Shown piece by piece: positions 38,169-57,919 of a stretch of 64,000 nt of DNA. Positions within the stretch are counted from its first letter, which is position 1, and the number at the start of each line of letters is the position of its first letter. Origin of the DNA: Prochlorococcus marinus str. MIT 0918 (GTDB taxonomy: Bacteria; Cyanobacteriota; Cyanobacteriia; PCC-6307; Cyanobiaceae); the NCBI RefSeq assembly GCF_027359415.1, contig NZ_CP114780.1, positions 868,001 through 932,000 on the forward strand, given 5' to 3'. The position numbers and the translations under genes are program-made. A model generated the notes under the pieces. It worked only from the letters and a program-made list of their open reading frames with translations, did no database searches and was not told where the DNA came from.

Positions 38169-39239
38169 TTAGAACCCTTGAGGGGAAGATTTAGTACGCA
38201 TTTTAAAATTCCAAACGTTAACGCCTCCTTTTGAATTTACTGCTGCCAAAGCACAATCATCAGGTCGCCAGGCAATTGCGGAGACAAGCTCTCCTGCGAA
38301 TGCTCCACCAAGTGGGTCACCATCACCATTTCTCTTGAGAAACCAAACAAGAACTGAACCATCTCTAGCTCCTGAAGCAAGAAGCATTCCCTGATTTGAA
38401 AAGGCAAGACTAGAAATCGATTCAGCATGGAGAGATAATTGTCCAGGGACAGTCCCTTCAGGGCCATTACCTTCAAAGCTCCAAACTGTTACAACATCAC
38501 TTCCCCCTGTAGCGAGGACTGTGCCACTCTGATCAAACGCTAACTGGCTTGGCTTACCCGGATACCCAGTCATTTCAGAGTCTTGATCAGTTGAGCGTCG
38601 CCAGAAATGAACAGAATTATCCTGACTACCGCAAACCACAACATCACCATTAGGACTAAGTACCATAGACACTAGTGAACCTTTCCATTCCAGCTTTTGA
38701 TTAACCTTGTCAGCAACTACGTCAAAAAAAGTCACTCGGCCATAGCATGCAGTTGCTAGTTCATTCGACTTTGACCAAGCGATCGAGCTAACAGTGCTTG
38801 GGTGTTCTCCTGATTTCCAATGCTCATGGCCATCAATCCCATATACATGCACTCTGCGAGAAAAGGCTACAGCCAAGAAACGTCCATCTGGTGACCATCT
38901 CAGGTGTTCGACCCAACCGTCTCCAAGCTCTATGACTTTAGTTGACTCCCCTTCTTCGCTATTCCAAATAAGAACACGTCCATCCTGTCCTGAAGTTGCA
39001 AAAATATCTCCATCTGGGTGTATAGATAATGCGAGTAGTCCTCCTTTATGGACCTCTTTTTTCTGCCAAAGGGGGCTTCCAGATTTACCCTCAAATAAAC
39101 AAAGTCCACCTGCAACATCACCTACTAAGAGTGCCTTGCCACCTAAGGTCCACCCACAAACTATGGCATAGTCTTCAACTTCAGCACTCCAGCCCTCGTG
39201 AAGCATCCCCTGGGGACTAAATCCTTCTACACCAGGCAC
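38169..39239 (-). CDS. WD40 beta-propeller protein
   Basis: 356 residues with about seven WD40 repeats; typical blade ends are GRVLIWN, NSVHFWRR, DVVTVWSF, GSVLVWFL and GGVNVWNF. The GTG start overlaps the 3' end of the CobW gene by 13 bases, so the two are co-translated and share the Zur-like box upstream of CobW. A role as scaffold or client-binding partner of the zinc chaperone is inferred from this linkage only. Confidence 0.88.
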   Translation of the reverse strand: MPGVEGFSPQGMLHEGWSAEVEDYAIVCGWTLGGKALLVGDVAGGLCLFEGKSGSPLWQKKEVHKGGLLALSIHPDGDIFATSGQDGRVLIWNSEEGESTKVIELGDGWVEHLRWSPDGRFLAVAFSRRVHVYGIDGHEHWKSGEHPSTVSSIAWSKSNELATACYGRVTFFDVVADKVNQKLEWKGSLVSMVLSPNGDVVVCGSQDNSVHFWRRSTDQDSEMTGYPGKPSQLAFDQSGTVLATGGSDVVTVWSFEGNGPEGTVPGQLSLHAESISSLAFSNQGMLLASGARDGSVLVWFLKRNGDGDPLGGAFAGELVSAIAWRPDDCALAAVNSKGGVNVWNFKMRTKSSPQGF

Positions 39240-40609
39240 TTATCAAACTCCCGACACATTTCTTTTTCATCAAGATTTCGACCGATAAACACTAATTGAT
39301 TATGGCGAGGTTCATTCCCCCACTCTTTATCTGGCTGAGCAGTGAAGAGCATGTGAACCCCTTGAAAAACCATTCGCCTGGATTCACCCGCGTAACTTAT
39401 AAACCCTTTTGTCCTAAATATATCTACACCTTTTTCTGACAGGAGTCGACTCAACCACTTATTAAGTTTTTCTGGATCGACATCACCTATTCGCTCAATA
39501 GCAATTGAGCCCACTTCATCATCATGTTCATGCTCTGCCACCCAAGTCCGCTCAGTTTCAAGTTGGACCAAAGCATCATTTTTTCCATCACTTTCAGTTG
39601 TAGTAATTAAAGTATCAATTCGGGATACTTTGATATCAAATTCTTCTGCTGTGTGCTGGGTGAAAAGCCCAATATGAGTAGGGTTATCAAGTTCCAAAAA
39701 GAAAGATTTACGCCCATTAGACTGAAGCTGAAGACTGACATGTTTTTCAATTGGGACTGTGCTTCCAGGATGAAGAAGTTCCGCAGAGTCAGCGTAAAGT
39801 CTTACGCAAGATTCAGCACCAGCATTAAGAGCTGCTTCGTCAATCCCCTGATCTTCCAGAACGACCAGCGACATCGTGGGATCAGGACCTTCTTCAAGGC
39901 TAAGTTCATAACGACCTTTCTCAAGAGAAAAAACACCTGTCCACTCGAATGGATATTCTGGCTCAAGGAAAGTGGGGCGACGCTTTAAAACCTGATCTAG
40001 ATCAAATGCACTAAGGTTTAACACAGTATCAATAGATACCTCCGCTTGCTTACTACGAACAACACGAGCCATCCGGTTCATATCGCGTAGCCGTGATTCA
40101 AGAATATCGAGAGATTCATCAGAGACTAAGTCCGTTTTGTTTAGGACAAGGACATCTGCGAAGGCAACCTGCTCAGAACTTTCATCACTGCGACCGAGTT
40201 GCTGATCAATATGAGCCGCATCAACGAGAGTAACAATGCCATCAAGAGAAAATTCATTACGGATTTCGTCATCCATAAAAAATGTCTGAGCAACAGGTCC
40301 AGGATCAGCAAGTCCTGTTGTCTCAACTAACACATAGTCGAATTTATCTCGTCGCTTCATGAGGTTGCCCAATACGCGAATCAGGTCTCCACGAACGGTG
40401 CAACAAATACAACCATTGGACATTTCAAAGACTTCCTCGTCAGCATTAATGACCAGACCCTGATCAATACCGACTTCACCATATTCATTTTCGATTACAG
40501 CTATTCGTTTGCCGTGTTCTTCACTCAGAATCCTATTAAGGAGGGTTGTTTTCCCAGATCCTAAAAAGCCCGTAAGGATTGTTACTGGTACCTTTTGTTC
40601 GAGATTCAT
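39227..40609 (-). CDS. COG0523/CobW-family GTPase zinc metallochaperone
   Basis: 460 residues. Walker A GFLGSGKTT (about 14-22), the metal-binding CxCC motif GCICC (Cys67-x-Cys69-Cys70), the guanine-specificity NKTD, and a C-terminal CobW_C domain followed by a His-rich stretch (EHEHDD). Proteins of this kind (ZNG1/ZagA/YeiR) deliver zinc to client enzymes under zinc shortage. A Zur-like box lies about 50 bases upstream. It forms an operon with the WD40 gene. Confidence 0.92.
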   Translation of the reverse strand: MNLEQKVPVTILTGFLGSGKTTLLNRILSEEHGKRIAVIENEYGEVGIDQGLVINADEEVFEMSNGCICCTVRGDLIRVLGNLMKRRDKFDYVLVETTGLADPGPVAQTFFMDDEIRNEFSLDGIVTLVDAAHIDQQLGRSDESSEQVAFADVLVLNKTDLVSDESLDILESRLRDMNRMARVVRSKQAEVSIDTVLNLSAFDLDQVLKRRPTFLEPEYPFEWTGVFSLEKGRYELSLEEGPDPTMSLVVLEDQGIDEAALNAGAESCVRLYADSAELLHPGSTVPIEKHVSLQLQSNGRKSFFLELDNPTHIGLFTQHTAEEFDIKVSRIDTLITTTESDGKNDALVQLETERTWVAEHEHDDEVGSIAIERIGDVDPEKLNKWLSRLLSEKGVDIFRTKGFISYAGESRRMVFQGVHMLFTAQPDKEWGNEPRHNQLVFIGRNLDEKEMCREFDKCLV

Positions 40610-40656
40610 TTTAATTTGCTATTTTCAAGCGAAAGAAATAGCAATAATTGATTATG

Positions 40657-40673
40657 AAAATGATAATCGTTTT
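40657..40673 (-). promoter_or_regulatory. Zur-like operator upstream of the CobW-WD40 operon
   Basis: AAAATGATAATCGTTTT (inverse AAAACGATTATCATTTT), imperfectly palindromic around GATAATC, 48-64 bases upstream of the CobW start. The site at 55543-55560 has the same AAAACGATTATCRTT core at nearly the same distance from another CobW-like gene. Fits the AT-rich Zur/Fur-type palindromes of cyanobacteria. Confidence 0.7.
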
Positions 40674-40997: not shown

Positions 40998-42551
40998 TTG
41001 CCACAGATTCAACTTCAAGAGAGGGTCTTAAATGGTCGTGGGAGAGTTCTTCTTTACGGCTCAGGAACGAGTGCGGGAAAGTGGTATTACAAAGAGAAAG
41101 TGGAAGGACAAAGAAGGTATAAAGAGAAGCAATTATTTGGAGCGAGTTCTTTAGAACAAGCCATTGCAATGGCACCAGAAGCAGCCATTGCATTAGCAAA
41201 AGAACCTGAGAAGAAGACTAGTTACAGGTATGCCTCTGATCCTCTAACTCTGATTCAACGAGAAGAGAAACTGATCAAGCAAAAAGAGAAGCTAGCGAAA
41301 GAAGAACAGAAAAAGGAACGTCCAAAGATAGTGATTGAATCAGCAATGGATCAGTGGCTATCAGAACAAGAGAAACGCGTAGAAGCTGGAGCTTTTCAAC
41401 CAGCAAGCTTTAGCCATAAGTTCAATTGCTGTCGGCACATCAAGCTCTATTTAAAAAAGAAGAAGGTTGTCTTTACCACTCAAATCAATACAACAACATT
41501 TGATGATTACCCCGTCTATCGACTCAAGCAAACAGATAAAAGAATCGTGATCCATCGAGAGCTTGCAGTCTTAGGTGAATTTATAAAAAGCTATTTGGTT
41601 AAACATAAATACATCCCTGCTCATCTCTGGTTAGACGGACAATTCCTACCAAGAATCACAGTCAGAGATACAGATCGAAACGCTAATCCAGCCATCAATC
41701 AAGAAGATTGGAGAACCATTATTGATTACATCCGAGAAGAGTGGAGGCCAGTTGCTTATGAGAAAGATCAGTTCGGTAGGAGATCAGAGAAGTCGATCTA
41801 TTTCCGCAATATGTTTTGGCATTGGTTGTTAATTGCAAAGAGCACAGGTATGAGTCCAGAAGAGATCTGCAAGATGAAATGGAAGAGTGTCGAGATTATT
41901 GATGTCGGACGAATCAGTAAGTCAAAAGCGATAGAAGAGTATGAACAGATCCTTGATGAAATCAAAGAAGAAGGGAAAGAAGATGAGATCTATATCGAAC
42001 CACCTGACTTAGATATCAATCCTTCTGATTGGGTTCTCAATCACGATGCTTGGGGACGAGAAGAACGACTGATTTCTTTTATCACTACTGTTAGAGCAAA
42101 GACTTCCAGAGTTAGAGAGATCCCTTGCAATCTTGGATATGTCTTTAGGCGATGGAAGTACTTCTTAGAGAAGGAACTGAATCACAAGGTCAGAGGTGAT
42201 GACTATGTGTTTGCTCAGATCCACAACGAGATGAAGCAACCCAACCAAAGGAAGATCCAACAGCATTGGAGATGGACTGTTGATAAGTTGATGGATGAAG
42301 GGAAGTTAAAAGGTCATAAGTTCTCTGATCGTCCTTATACCTTGTATTCACTACGATCAACCTTCATTGAGAATCACTTAATGAAAGGGATTGACATCTT
42401 CTTGTTAGCTCGTATTTGTGGCAATAGCGTCAAGACAATCATGGACACCTACGAAAGAATAGACATAAGGAAAAGAACAAAGGAAATAACAGATATTGAG
42501 TACGGAAAGAAGACAACAAATGCAGCCGTTGTGCAGCTCTATGCAGAATAG
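40998..42551 (+). CDS. divergent tyrosine recombinase/integrase
   Basis: 517 residues from TTG 40998. N-terminal arm-type domain (about 1-75, GSGTSAGKWYYKEKVEG), a Lys/Glu coiled linker, a SAM-like core-binding domain (about 110-215) and a C-terminal catalytic domain. The latter keeps the Lys strand (VRAKTSRVREIP), Arg II in YSLRSTF (about 452) and the nucleophile context DTYERID (about 485). Positions normally Arg I, His and His/Trp appear as Ser (TGMSPEEICKMKW), Tyr (YSLRS) and Asn (CGNSVKT). Probably drives the repeat-flanked element. Confidence 0.8.
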   Translation: MPQIQLQERVLNGRGRVLLYGSGTSAGKWYYKEKVEGQRRYKEKQLFGASSLEQAIAMAPEAAIALAKEPEKKTSYRYASDPLTLIQREEKLIKQKEKLAKEEQKKERPKIVIESAMDQWLSEQEKRVEAGAFQPASFSHKFNCCRHIKLYLKKKKVVFTTQINTTTFDDYPVYRLKQTDKRIVIHRELAVLGEFIKSYLVKHKYIPAHLWLDGQFLPRITVRDTDRNANPAINQEDWRTIIDYIREEWRPVAYEKDQFGRRSEKSIYFRNMFWHWLLIAKSTGMSPEEICKMKWKSVEIIDVGRISKSKAIEEYEQILDEIKEEGKEDEIYIEPPDLDINPSDWVLNHDAWGREERLISFITTVRAKTSRVREIPCNLGYVFRRWKYFLEKELNHKVRGDDYVFAQIHNEMKQPNQRKIQQHWRWTVDKLMDEGKLKGHKFSDRPYTLYSLRSTFIENHLMKGIDIFLLARICGNSVKTIMDTYERIDIRKRTKEITDIEYGKKTTNAAVVQLYAE

Positions 42552-55516: not shown

Positions 55517-55542
55517 TCTGCCTATTGTCGTGATTACAAAAT

Positions 55543-55560
55543 GAAAACGATTATCGTTCT
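55543..55560 (+). promoter_or_regulatory. Zur-like operator upstream of the CobW-like/phosphatase operon
   Basis: GAAAACGATTATCGTTCT, sharing AAAACGATTATCRTT with the inverse of 40657-40673 and lying 43-60 bases before the gene start, almost the same distance as at the other CobW gene. Confidence 0.7.
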
Positions 55561-55602
55561 TATCTTTTGATAAGGTCGACAATGTTTGGTCTTGCGTAAA
55601 AG

Positions 55603-56388
55603 ATGGGACAAAAATGGTTAATTTCAGGCTCGCCAGGGTGCGGGAAGACGACCTGGATACTTAACAAGATCCAAAGCAATCAAGGTGCTTGCGGATATTT
55701 ACGCCTAACTGAACAAGCCAACAATAATAAAGAAAAGTCACCTGAATCTCTAATTGATTACACATTCTTGAAAGATCAAGCTCCTCATCTACAAGACTTG
55801 TCGGACTGTTCTGATACCTCTATGTCACAACAGAAAGACTTCTTAATTTTGATTGAGCTTTCACAATCTCAATCACCTGAAAGCTTAGAACCAGCAGAGC
55901 TAAATCCTTACGTCAAGAGTCAACTTGAGGCTTTAGGGCTACAACCTGATAGGCAACTACACTTTGGTCGAGACTCAGAATTACCTAATAATGACACGTT
56001 GGTTTTCAAAAAACTTGAATCTTGGAGTCTCAACCTTGCCAAAAGAGTCTGGGATCCACAGAGCCTAAATACCTTTTGGTTTGAGCTCGTGAATGGAGCT
56101 TATGGAGATGTCTATAGAGCCAAGGCTCTCATGAACTTGCCCGATGGACAGTCTATTTTCTTCAATTGGATTGTGAGTCAAAAAGGGTCACAGTTTCTTC
56201 CACTAAAAACAGTTTCTCCCCCTAATGGCAGGCCTCAACGACCATCAGGGATTGTCATACAAGGGAAAGGACTTGATTGCATAAACATTCAGTCAACGAT
56301 CAACCTCTGCCTGCTAAACGATTCCTTACTCGAAATGCATCAAATGCCTCTTCGAGATCGACAACCAGAAGCCCTTCACGCAAGCTAA
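55603..56388 (+). CDS. CobW/COG0523-derived P-loop protein lacking the CxCC motif
   Basis: 261 residues. Walker A SGSPGCGKTTW (about 7-17) begins a shortened GTPase domain with little else conserved; neither CxCC nor NKxD is visible. The C-terminal part (FWFELVNGAYGDVYRAKALM, DGQSIFFNWIVSQKGSQF) resembles the CobW_C domain. Probably a degenerate relative of the zinc chaperone at 39227. It has the same type of operator upstream and is followed five bases later by a phosphatase-like gene. Confidence 0.75.
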   Translation: MGQKWLISGSPGCGKTTWILNKIQSNQGACGYLRLTEQANNNKEKSPESLIDYTFLKDQAPHLQDLSDCSDTSMSQQKDFLILIELSQSQSPESLEPAELNPYVKSQLEALGLQPDRQLHFGRDSELPNNDTLVFKKLESWSLNLAKRVWDPQSLNTFWFELVNGAYGDVYRAKALMNLPDGQSIFFNWIVSQKGSQFLPLKTVSPPNGRPQRPSGIVIQGKGLDCINIQSTINLCLLNDSLLEMHQMPLRDRQPEALHAS

Positions 56389-56393
56389 TCATC

Positions 56394-57209
56394 ATGAAAC
56401 ATGCAGTGATCTCCTGCCTACATGCCAACCTCGCTGCAGTGAAGGCGGTGTTAAATGATATTGATCAAAATGGAATTAGCGATATCACCTGTCTTGGTGA
56501 TCTAGTAGGCTATGGACCACAACCGAATGAAGTAGTAGATCTAGTACGAGAACGTGCTATTGCTAGCTGTCAAGGTTGCTGGGATGAAGATATTATTGAG
56601 GGTCTTAATGCATGCGAATGCAGCTACCCATCTCAACTAGCGGAAAAGCGTGGACATCTAGCTCATGAGTGGACAGCAGAACAATTAACAGATGTCAATA
56701 AAGATTTTCTAGCAAGTTTGCCAACATCAATACGTAGAGATCGCATCCTGTTTGTTCATGGCAGTCCCAATAGCCAACATGAGTATCTTCTACCTGACAT
56801 GAATGCATTTGCAGCACTTGAAAGAGTTGACAAAGCCGGAGCTGATACTTTGTTTTGCGGACACACTCATCAACCTTATGTACGTGAACTAAGAAATGGA
56901 TCAATTCGAGTGCGGCTACAAAACACGTCTAATAACAATGCAGAAGAAAAAGAAATAAATTTCCCGATGCGAAAAATCGTCAATGCAGGATCAGTCGGCG
57001 AGCCTCGTCATGGGAGCACTAATGCCACCTATGTAATCCATGATGATGTTACTGGTGAAGTTGAAATCAAAGAGGTAGCCTATGATATTAGGCAAACTTG
57101 CCAAGCCATTATTGATGCTGGATTGCCACCAATATTTGCATGGCGACTAAGCCATGGCTTTGAATTTGCTGAGCAAGCCGAAGATGCTAGTCATGTTTGC
57201 GAACGATGA
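56394..57209 (+). CDS. metallophosphoesterase-like protein with altered metal ligands
   Basis: 271 residues from ATG 56394 (MKHAVISCLHANLAAVKAVL). Overall YfcE/ApaH-like calcineurin fold: CLGDLVGYGP supplies GD, FVHGSPN the HG, and FCGHTHQPY the GHTH. The first ligand motif is CLH instead of DxH, and GNHD appears as GCWD. So an Asp is replaced by Cys and the Asn-His pair by Cys-Trp, consistent with a changed metal site. Coupled to the upstream CobW-like gene and overlapping the next gene by four bases. Confidence 0.8.
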   Translation: MKHAVISCLHANLAAVKAVLNDIDQNGISDITCLGDLVGYGPQPNEVVDLVRERAIASCQGCWDEDIIEGLNACECSYPSQLAEKRGHLAHEWTAEQLTDVNKDFLASLPTSIRRDRILFVHGSPNSQHEYLLPDMNAFAALERVDKAGADTLFCGHTHQPYVRELRNGSIRVRLQNTSNNNAEEKEINFPMRKIVNAGSVGEPRHGSTNATYVIHDDVTGEVEIKEVAYDIRQTCQAIIDAGLPPIFAWRLSHGFEFAEQAEDASHVCER

Positions 57210-57919
57210 TTGAGCGCTGGGCACTAGTGAGTGGTCTAAAAGGTGACCTAGAAACCTACGAGCTGATTCAAAGTGAATTAAAGAAAGCTCGCGGAGTTAC
57301 GGCCTTATTTGTCCTGGGAGATATGATCGGGCCAGAACGCAACTGTGATGCATTATTAAATCGACTACAAACCCCCCGACGTGATGAGTTACAACCTCAA
57401 TGCATATATGGCTGGTGGGAAGAGCAACTACTCGCAGAACAAGGATTACGTGGCGAGCAAAAGGCCGATGCCTTACGACTAAATCAAGGAGAAGAAGCAG
57501 TAACGGCCTTATTGAATGCTGTTGATAACTATCACCTCAAGTGGCTAGCATCACTTCAATTTGGCTTCATTGAATTAGACTGCGGCTTAATCCATGGAAG
57601 CTCCGCAGATGTAGGAGATAACCTTACACCTGAAACATCTCCGCTCATTCTTATTGATCGCCTCACTCGACTTGATGTAAATAGATTATTCACAGCACAC
57701 AGTACCAAACAATTTCATCTTGAACTCACAGGGGGAGGGCTCGATTCACAGGTAAAAGACCTGAATGGCGTAAATCAACATCAGCAGAAAGTATCTAAAC
57801 AAAGCATCATTGGAATTGGAGCAGGAGCGAATTACACCATCTATGACGTTGGTAGCGATAAAACACACTTTCTGACCGTTGGTGGTCAATACAATACAAA
57901 AGGAAAAGGTTTCGCATAA
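57206..57919 (+). CDS. degenerate metallophosphoesterase paralogue
   Basis: 237 residues from ATG 57206, overlapping the upstream stop (ATGA). It follows the same fold as its neighbour but has lost most catalytic residues: VSGLKGD for DxHGN, LFVLGDMIGP retained, YGWWEE for GNHD, LIHGSS retained, and FTAHST for GHTH. Likely a non-catalytic partner or regulatory subunit of the preceding protein. Confidence 0.72.
   Translation: MIERWALVSGLKGDLETYELIQSELKKARGVTALFVLGDMIGPERNCDALLNRLQTPRRDELQPQCIYGWWEEQLLAEQGLRGEQKADALRLNQGEEAVTALLNAVDNYHLKWLASLQFGFIELDCGLIHGSSADVGDNLTPETSPLILIDRLTRLDVNRLFTAHSTKQFHLELTGGGLDSQVKDLNGVNQHQQKVSKQSIIGIGAGANYTIYDVGSDKTHFLTVGGQYNTKGKGFA

Follow-up and report, generated by a model that had tools for sequence, protein, structure and literature searches.

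In Anabaena, a Zur-controlled operon contains thrS2 and a COG0523 gene, and Zur binds upstream of all4725 (PMC4787780, PMC10957091), and in Synechococcus PCC 7002 hemB-II and folE-II belong to a Zur-controlled cluster (PMC4628125). The three genes described here (P0003, P0001 and P0002, hereafter the trio) sit in such low-zinc clusters (hemB-II, thrS2, COG0523, folE-II) in many cyanobacteria, but in the papers that we found the metallophosphoesterase (MPE) pair among them is not described as part of the Anabaena or PCC 7002 cluster. A further related protein is the MPE Car1 of Rufibacter tibetensis, which is reported to be an arsenate reductase requiring Cys74 and Cys76 and has a Paraclostridium homologue located in an ars operon (PMC12124457).

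The window, i.e. the whole stretch of 64,000 nucleotides that was analysed, is part of a closed 1.79-Mb genome (G000) and contains the following features:

55603-56388, + strand: P0003, a 261-aa P-loop NTPase with a CobW_C-like C-terminal domain, the trio's first gene
56394-57209, + strand: P0001, a 271-aa MPE-fold protein with C8, C62, C74-x-C76 and H267-x-C269
57206-57919, + strand: P0002, a 237-aa paralogue of P0001 with an MPE fold without metal site
55540-55564, + strand: predicted Zur box, AATGAAAACGATTATCGTTCTTATC region, with its core TGAAAACGATTATCGTT at 55542-55558, upstream of the P0003 operon
39227-40609, - strand: canonical COG0523 (CobW/G3E) gene with a GCICC motif (PF02492 match at 3.1e-62), within the window
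40655-40673, - strand: Zur-type box TGAAAATGATAATCGTTTT, a near-palindrome given in + strand letters, upstream of the COG0523 gene

P0001 and P0002 had been predicted to be fused by an ATGA overlap; the overlap is present (57206-57209), but the genes overlap without being fused, and the arrangement is not general, the two genes being elsewhere spaced, kilobases apart or on separate contigs.

Metal-site residues of P0001 and its relatives

P0001 matches PF12850 at 5.2e-22, and its fold is close to those of the Sphaerobacter MPE 3rqz (Z 29.3), the degenerate MPE-fold proteins 1nnw/2gju of Pyrococcus (Z 28.3-28.7) and SapH, or Spr1479 (3qfm; Z 27.0). Relative to the canonical ligand set (DxH, GD, GN, H, GHxH), P0001 has Cys at 2/7 ligand positions and the other 5/7 remain. 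The DxH motif has become CLH (MKHAVISCLHANL, i.e. C8-x-H10) and the GN[H]D motif has become GCWD (QGCWDED, i.e. G61-C62-W63-D64), and D36 (LGDL), H122 (FVHGSP), H157 and H159 (FCGHTHQP) are unchanged, so that the motifs listed in the original prediction, both the altered ones and the preserved GD, HG and GHTH, are all borne out by the sequence. Unlike P0001, SapH and 3rqz have canonical Asp/Asn metal ligands, no matched CxC and no known link to zinc starvation; the Pyrococcus proteins, of which 1nnw, too, deviates from the ligand motifs of MPEs when aligned, lack the Cys substitution and have no known partner operon. We know of no MPE with Cys at these two ligand positions.

The conservation of C8 and C62 is far beyond chance. 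C8, C62, C74, C76, C155, C236 and C269 show no variation among 67 distinct P0001 orthologues of Prochlorococcus, Synechococcus and Cyanobium. Across the phylum, every aligned orthologue retains C8, C62, C74, C76 and C155; C33 and C59 are not fixed phylum-wide. Both substituted residues are kept in 30/30 members of a further orthologue set, which overlaps partly with the wider one, and D8/N62 take the place of Cys only in an outgroup (L148) and in non-cyanobacterial relatives. Relatives with 34-36% identity carry Asp and Asn at the two sites. Thus the free variation among homologues that had been named beforehand as evidence against a retuned site is not what we observe, since C8 and C62 never vary in the cyanobacterial orthologues examined. 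P0001 also carries two features that the original prediction does not mention, the invariant C74-x-C76 motif and a conserved C-terminal tail with H267-x-C269. In the predicted model (pLDDT 84.9 overall), values are ~63 for the C74/C76 loop and <50 for the tail, which is predicted to be disordered.

When a plasmid collection was searched by tblastn, the nearest non-cyanobacterial relatives of P0001 proved to be MPEs encoded in the ars operons of Bacteroidota, Rubrobacter and Paraclostridium. In the ars-operon MPEs from plasmids of Rubrobacter, Pedobacter, Adhaeribacter, Paraclostridium and Hymenobacter (L238, L239, L240, L242 and L243), a CGC aligns exactly on C74-x-C76. Because of this alignment, and because Car1 is reported to need both cysteines, P0001 is on sequence grounds a member of a thiol-bearing MPE branch, to which it adds Cys at ligands 8 and 62. 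Car1-type MPEs belong to the same MPE subfamily (~33-36% identity) and share with P0001 the CxC at C74/C76, GD, H122 and GHTH; however, the homologues in ars operons have kept DxH and GNYD where P0001 has C8 and C62, and P0001 goes beyond the Car1 type in its conserved HxC tail, its invariant pseudo-paralogue and its zinc-gene context. The Pedobacter ars operon holds a tandem MPE pair of its own, one of the CGC type and one of the plain GNHD type, parallel to the cyanobacterial tandem pair.

It is possible, if rather doubtful, that P0001 is itself a redox MPE of the Car1 type, in which C74-x-C76 would reduce an oxyanion or a disulphide bound to a metal site tuned by Cys; the enzyme would be produced when zinc is scarce, and P0002 would be its inert partner subunit. 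The exact match of the ars-operon CGC to this motif, together with the reported dependence of Car1 on Cys74 and Cys76 (PMC12124457), agrees with such a role, and the MPE core (D36, H122, H157, H159) is intact. Against this, P0001 does not retain the DxH and GNYD of its Car1-like relatives, the neighbourhoods examined hold zinc genes around the trio and no ars context, and a redox enzyme would leave both the Cys ligand substitution and the P-loop partner unexplained.

SapH, too, has Trp where the GNHD motif has His (GNWED in 3qfm; the Trp follows the GN that corresponds to the GC of P0001). Since SapH is deposited as an Ap4A hydrolase, loss of this His alone is no sign of inactivity, and a reading of H63 to W as the mark of a dead enzyme was rejected. 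P0001 might be a phosphatase or nucleotide hydrolase of altered type, replacing a zinc enzyme or removing a signalling nucleotide during zinc starvation, given that 3rqz and SapH are its closest solved folds and that the fold and 5/7 ligands remain. We consider this unlikely, however, as Cys is fixed at two of the ligand positions and the neighbouring genes give no clue to a substrate beyond zinc enzymes.

The paralogue P0002 and the distribution of the pair

A Pfam search with P0002 gave no match. Profile-profile comparison with P0001 (hhalign) gave E=2.7e-32 over 229 columns, and the AlphaFold model (pLDDT 90.9) has 3rqz as its top Foldseek match (6e-10). In the profile alignment to P0001, P0002 keeps 2/7 ligands, D39 and H130, and the positions of C8, H10, C62, H157 and H159 are taken by G10, K12, W70, H165 and T167, with H165 being Arg in nearly all relatives. 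The description of the second protein as one that has lost nearly all ligands and kept the fold is therefore correct. In the phylogeny, P0002 forms a separate clade with a support of 100/100; the same tree does not resolve P0001 as a single clade against Car1-like proteins.

P0001 was present in 67 of the 292 cyanobacterial genomes sampled and absent from the other 225, and P0002 was found in 67/67 of the genomes with P0001, as would be expected of the pseudo-enzyme partner originally proposed. P0002 or a remnant of it occurs without P0001 in six of the 292 genomes, mostly as fragments or with stops. Both genes are present even where they lie several kb apart (L132, L050, L030) or on separate contigs (G070, G078). 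The trio ranges from ocean Prochlorococcus to freshwater relatives of Nostoc (Nostocales), and matches to P0001 in Prochlorococcus single-cell genomes reach 97%. In the marine Synechococcus-type loci L132 (8031-15368), L050 (6813-11989) and L030 (2952-8720), the gap between P0001 and P0002 is several kb of poorly recognisable sequence, whose contents vary among the three.

The lost site of P0002 and the 225/292 genomes without P0001 could be taken to mean that the two proteins are unremarkable MPE paralogues that have diverged and whose metal sites have drifted and do not matter. This is highly improbable in view of the invariance of the substituted positions across the phylum and of the 67/67 co-occurrence of the pair, which speak for strong purifying selection.

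P0003, zinc genes and the predicted Zur box

P0003 has the Walker A sequence GSPGCGKT, with G9, G12, G14, K15 and T16 invariant in 24 sequences. The 'CobW-like' label originally given to this gene holds in part: a CobW_C match is present, albeit weak in P0003 (E=0.005, below the cut-off), and 22/24 family members match this domain, at best with 9.5e-7, but the CobW GTPase domain PF02492 has no match in P0003 and was found in 1/24 homologues, at 0.006. With hhalign, the alignment of P0003 to canonical COG0523 covered 60 P-loop columns and no more. On the grounds of this short alignment and of the single PF02492 match, we do not class P0003 as a CobW gene proper. The COG0523/G3E GTPases found in Zur regulons (YciC/ZagA type; Anabaena all4722) resemble P0003 in its P-loop and, as far as its weak match goes, in a CobW_C-like layout, and share with the trio the low-zinc clusters and the Zur-type box, but P0003 differs from them in its short N-terminal domain, in being missed by the CobW GTPase model and in lacking the CxCC and [NT]KxD strings, neither of which occurs in its sequence. 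P0003 adjoins P0001 in 19/20 non-marine loci and in the intact loci of the marine group.

The link of the trio to zinc starvation is well supported. At least one low-zinc gene lies near the trio in 17/20 non-marine loci (regions of 10-18 kb), with folE in 14, COG0523 in 11, hemB in 10, thrS in 6, hisI in 4 and znuA in 3 of the 20, compared to a chance level of ~0.4% for a given single-copy gene within 18 kb of a 5-Mb genome. The order is znuA-znuC-hemB-thrS-COG0523-hisI-trio on plasmid A of Trichormus variabilis ATCC 29413 and thrS-COG0523-folE-trio, with znu close by, in Dolichospermum DET69, and folE and hemB adjoin the trio in Picosynechococcus PCC 7117. Ten freshwater loci of the Cyanobium/Synechococcus type have a canonical COG0523 gene whose end shares 4 bp with P0003, and 5/10 of them also contain znuA ~4 kb further on. 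Marine loci mostly have no zinc genes beside the trio, the box aside (folE in 1/15). These zinc-starvation neighbours throughout the phylum, together with the Zur-type box upstream, strongly support the low-zinc part of the original prediction.

A FAD/NAD(P)-binding gene resembling lysine/ornithine monooxygenases recurs beside the trio in 9/20 non-marine loci (L119, L120, L125, L126, L128 and others). G0132 of PCC 7002, which is Zur-controlled and described as a FAD-dependent oxidoreductase (PMC4628125), may be its counterpart. No match for the trio to defence systems was returned by PADLOC, and a search of phages and viral contigs yielded distant MPEs only.

Upstream boxes were scored against the RegPrecise consensus for the Zur box of cyanobacteria (16 specified positions), taken from PMC9337993. 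The AATGAAAACGATTATCGTTCTTATC box upstream of P0003 agrees at 14/16 positions, as does the TGAAAATGATAATCGTTTT box at 40655 upstream of the COG0523 gene of the window, and the same box type (14/16) is found in this genome between znuA and znuC, adjoining a gene of the FUR family, probably zur. Since the box type is common to both, the COG0523 gene (39227-40609) likely belongs to the same Zur regulon as the trio. The Zur-type box is conserved upstream of orthologous operons: at least 12/16 consensus positions were present in 78/92 distinct picocyanobacterial loci vs 43/597 upstream regions of control ORFs, the main exceptions being Cyanobium-type loci with COG0523 directly upstream of the trio. 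We therefore predict the trio to be in the Zur regulon. A 17-mer with exactly three matches in the genome was composed after the three sites had been seen, so that this count, unlike the consensus test, is not independent. A genome scan with a wide 13-bp box and 2 mismatches gave background level, and a second match to a strict pattern, at C1:986405, was dropped as it lies inside a coding gene.

Within the window, a WD40-repeat-like ORF (38169-39239, - strand) and the canonical COG0523 gene are probably one operon, because the start of the former overlaps the 3' end of the latter. The COG0523 start, with its Zur-type box, has an integrase-like ORF of 517 aa (40998-42551, + strand) ~390 bp away; an integrase-like gene likewise adjoins bmtA, which is Zur-activated, in WH8102 (PMC9337993). 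Next to znuA of this genome (L197:3570-3956, - strand) there is a 128-codon COG0523 piece, whose first ~70 residues hardly differ from those of the COG0523 protein of the window and which is a recent duplication or gene-conversion remnant. The ZnuA frame there (L197:4336-5940, - strand; 534 codons) matches PF01297 in two parts, is overlapped by a frame rich in short repeats and probably carries a His-rich insert.

Expression data are available from PCC 7002, where both a zur mutation and TPEN induce the P-loop gene G0131, the P0003 orthologue by gene order, together with hemB-II and folE-II (PMC4628125). G0129 (a 'phosphoesterase') and G0130, located between folE-II and G0131, showed no increase in the zur mutant (PMC4628125). 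By the gene order of PCC 7117 these two are putatively P0002 and P0001, an assignment to the MPE pair that is at odds with the statement that G0130 has no homologues (PMC4628125). As neither responded to the zur mutation, Zur may not control the MPE genes in PCC 7002.

The original prediction had also raised a metal sensor, an idea that gains no support from the context. A version in which P0001 senses zinc and regulates P0003 or another partner post-translationally would suit the thiolate-rich site and the inert partner; we regard it as very unlikely nonetheless, since zinc is already sensed by Zur, a DNA-binding or signalling domain is lacking and no specific feature indicates sensing.

A candidate zinc-handling complex and its meaning for low-zinc life

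We propose that the trio encodes a Zur-controlled zinc-handling complex consisting of an NTPase, a thiolate-rich MPE-fold carrier and an inert partner, a reading that we find plausible, though it falls somewhat short of probable. It is the most economical one because a CobW-like P-loop partner and an inert twin accompany P0001. For the trio, we infer the binding of Zur to the box and of Zn to P0001, the formation of a complex, the direction of transfer and the NTPase step. When zinc in the cell falls, Zur would leave its predicted box at ~55542 and the operon would be made. By homology, the two-metal site of P0001 would comprise M1 (C8, H10, D36, H159) and M2 (D36, C62, H122, H157); being soft, such a Cys/His site would suit Zn(II). 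P0001 would not act as an ordinary phosphatase, but would bind Zn(II) tightly and hand it over via the mobile thiols of the C74-x-C76 loop and the HxC tail, P0002 would serve as its metal-free, obligatory structural partner, and P0003 would gate capture or release of zinc through an NTPase step, much as G3E GTPases act for their metallocentres. Capture and hand-over are suggested by the conserved mobile thiols near a tight site, and the low pLDDT of the C74/C76 loop and of the conserved HxC tail is as expected of mobile metal-handling segments.

Several observations speak against a carrier: the redox role of C74-x-C76 in Car1, which favours a redox enzyme, the H-to-W change that SapH shares, so that P0001 may be catalytic, and the absence of G3E signatures from P0003. 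The unchanged G0129 and G0130 in the zur mutant of PCC 7002 and the scarcity of zinc genes beside the trio in marine loci count against it too. Zur-regulated paralogues can lose Zn ligands, as reported for DksA and discussed for HemB2 (PMC2770081). Because several such paralogues lose Zn ligands and P0001 has instead acquired thiols, it is better explained as a carrier or scavenger of zinc than as a zinc-sparing enzyme, and the earlier suggestion of a client specialised for low zinc fits badly. Taken further, and only tentatively, the trio could be a zinc-allocation machine, in which a thiolate-liganded two-zinc MPE carrier equipped with CxC loop and HxC tail, its inert copy and a divergent CobW-type NTPase gate would direct scarce zinc in cyanobacteria from oligotrophic Prochlorococcus to Nostocales.

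The trio is built from known kinds, namely the MPE fold and COG0523-type zinc modules, and represents no new class. We found no papers naming its genes with zinc or COG0523, and we predict it to be a conserved component of the Zur low-zinc response for which we found no description. The MPE fold seems to have been recruited for thiol chemistry at least twice, for arsenate in Car1 and in a zinc context in the P0001 family, and P0001 and P0002 form a natural pair with new ligands in one copy and none in the other. For ocean picocyanobacteria, which grow at very low zinc, the trio, carrying only the label 'metallophosphoesterase' in public annotation, offers a concrete, conserved and testable candidate module for zinc allocation inside the cell. 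It looks like an undescribed part of cyanobacterial life on very little zinc.
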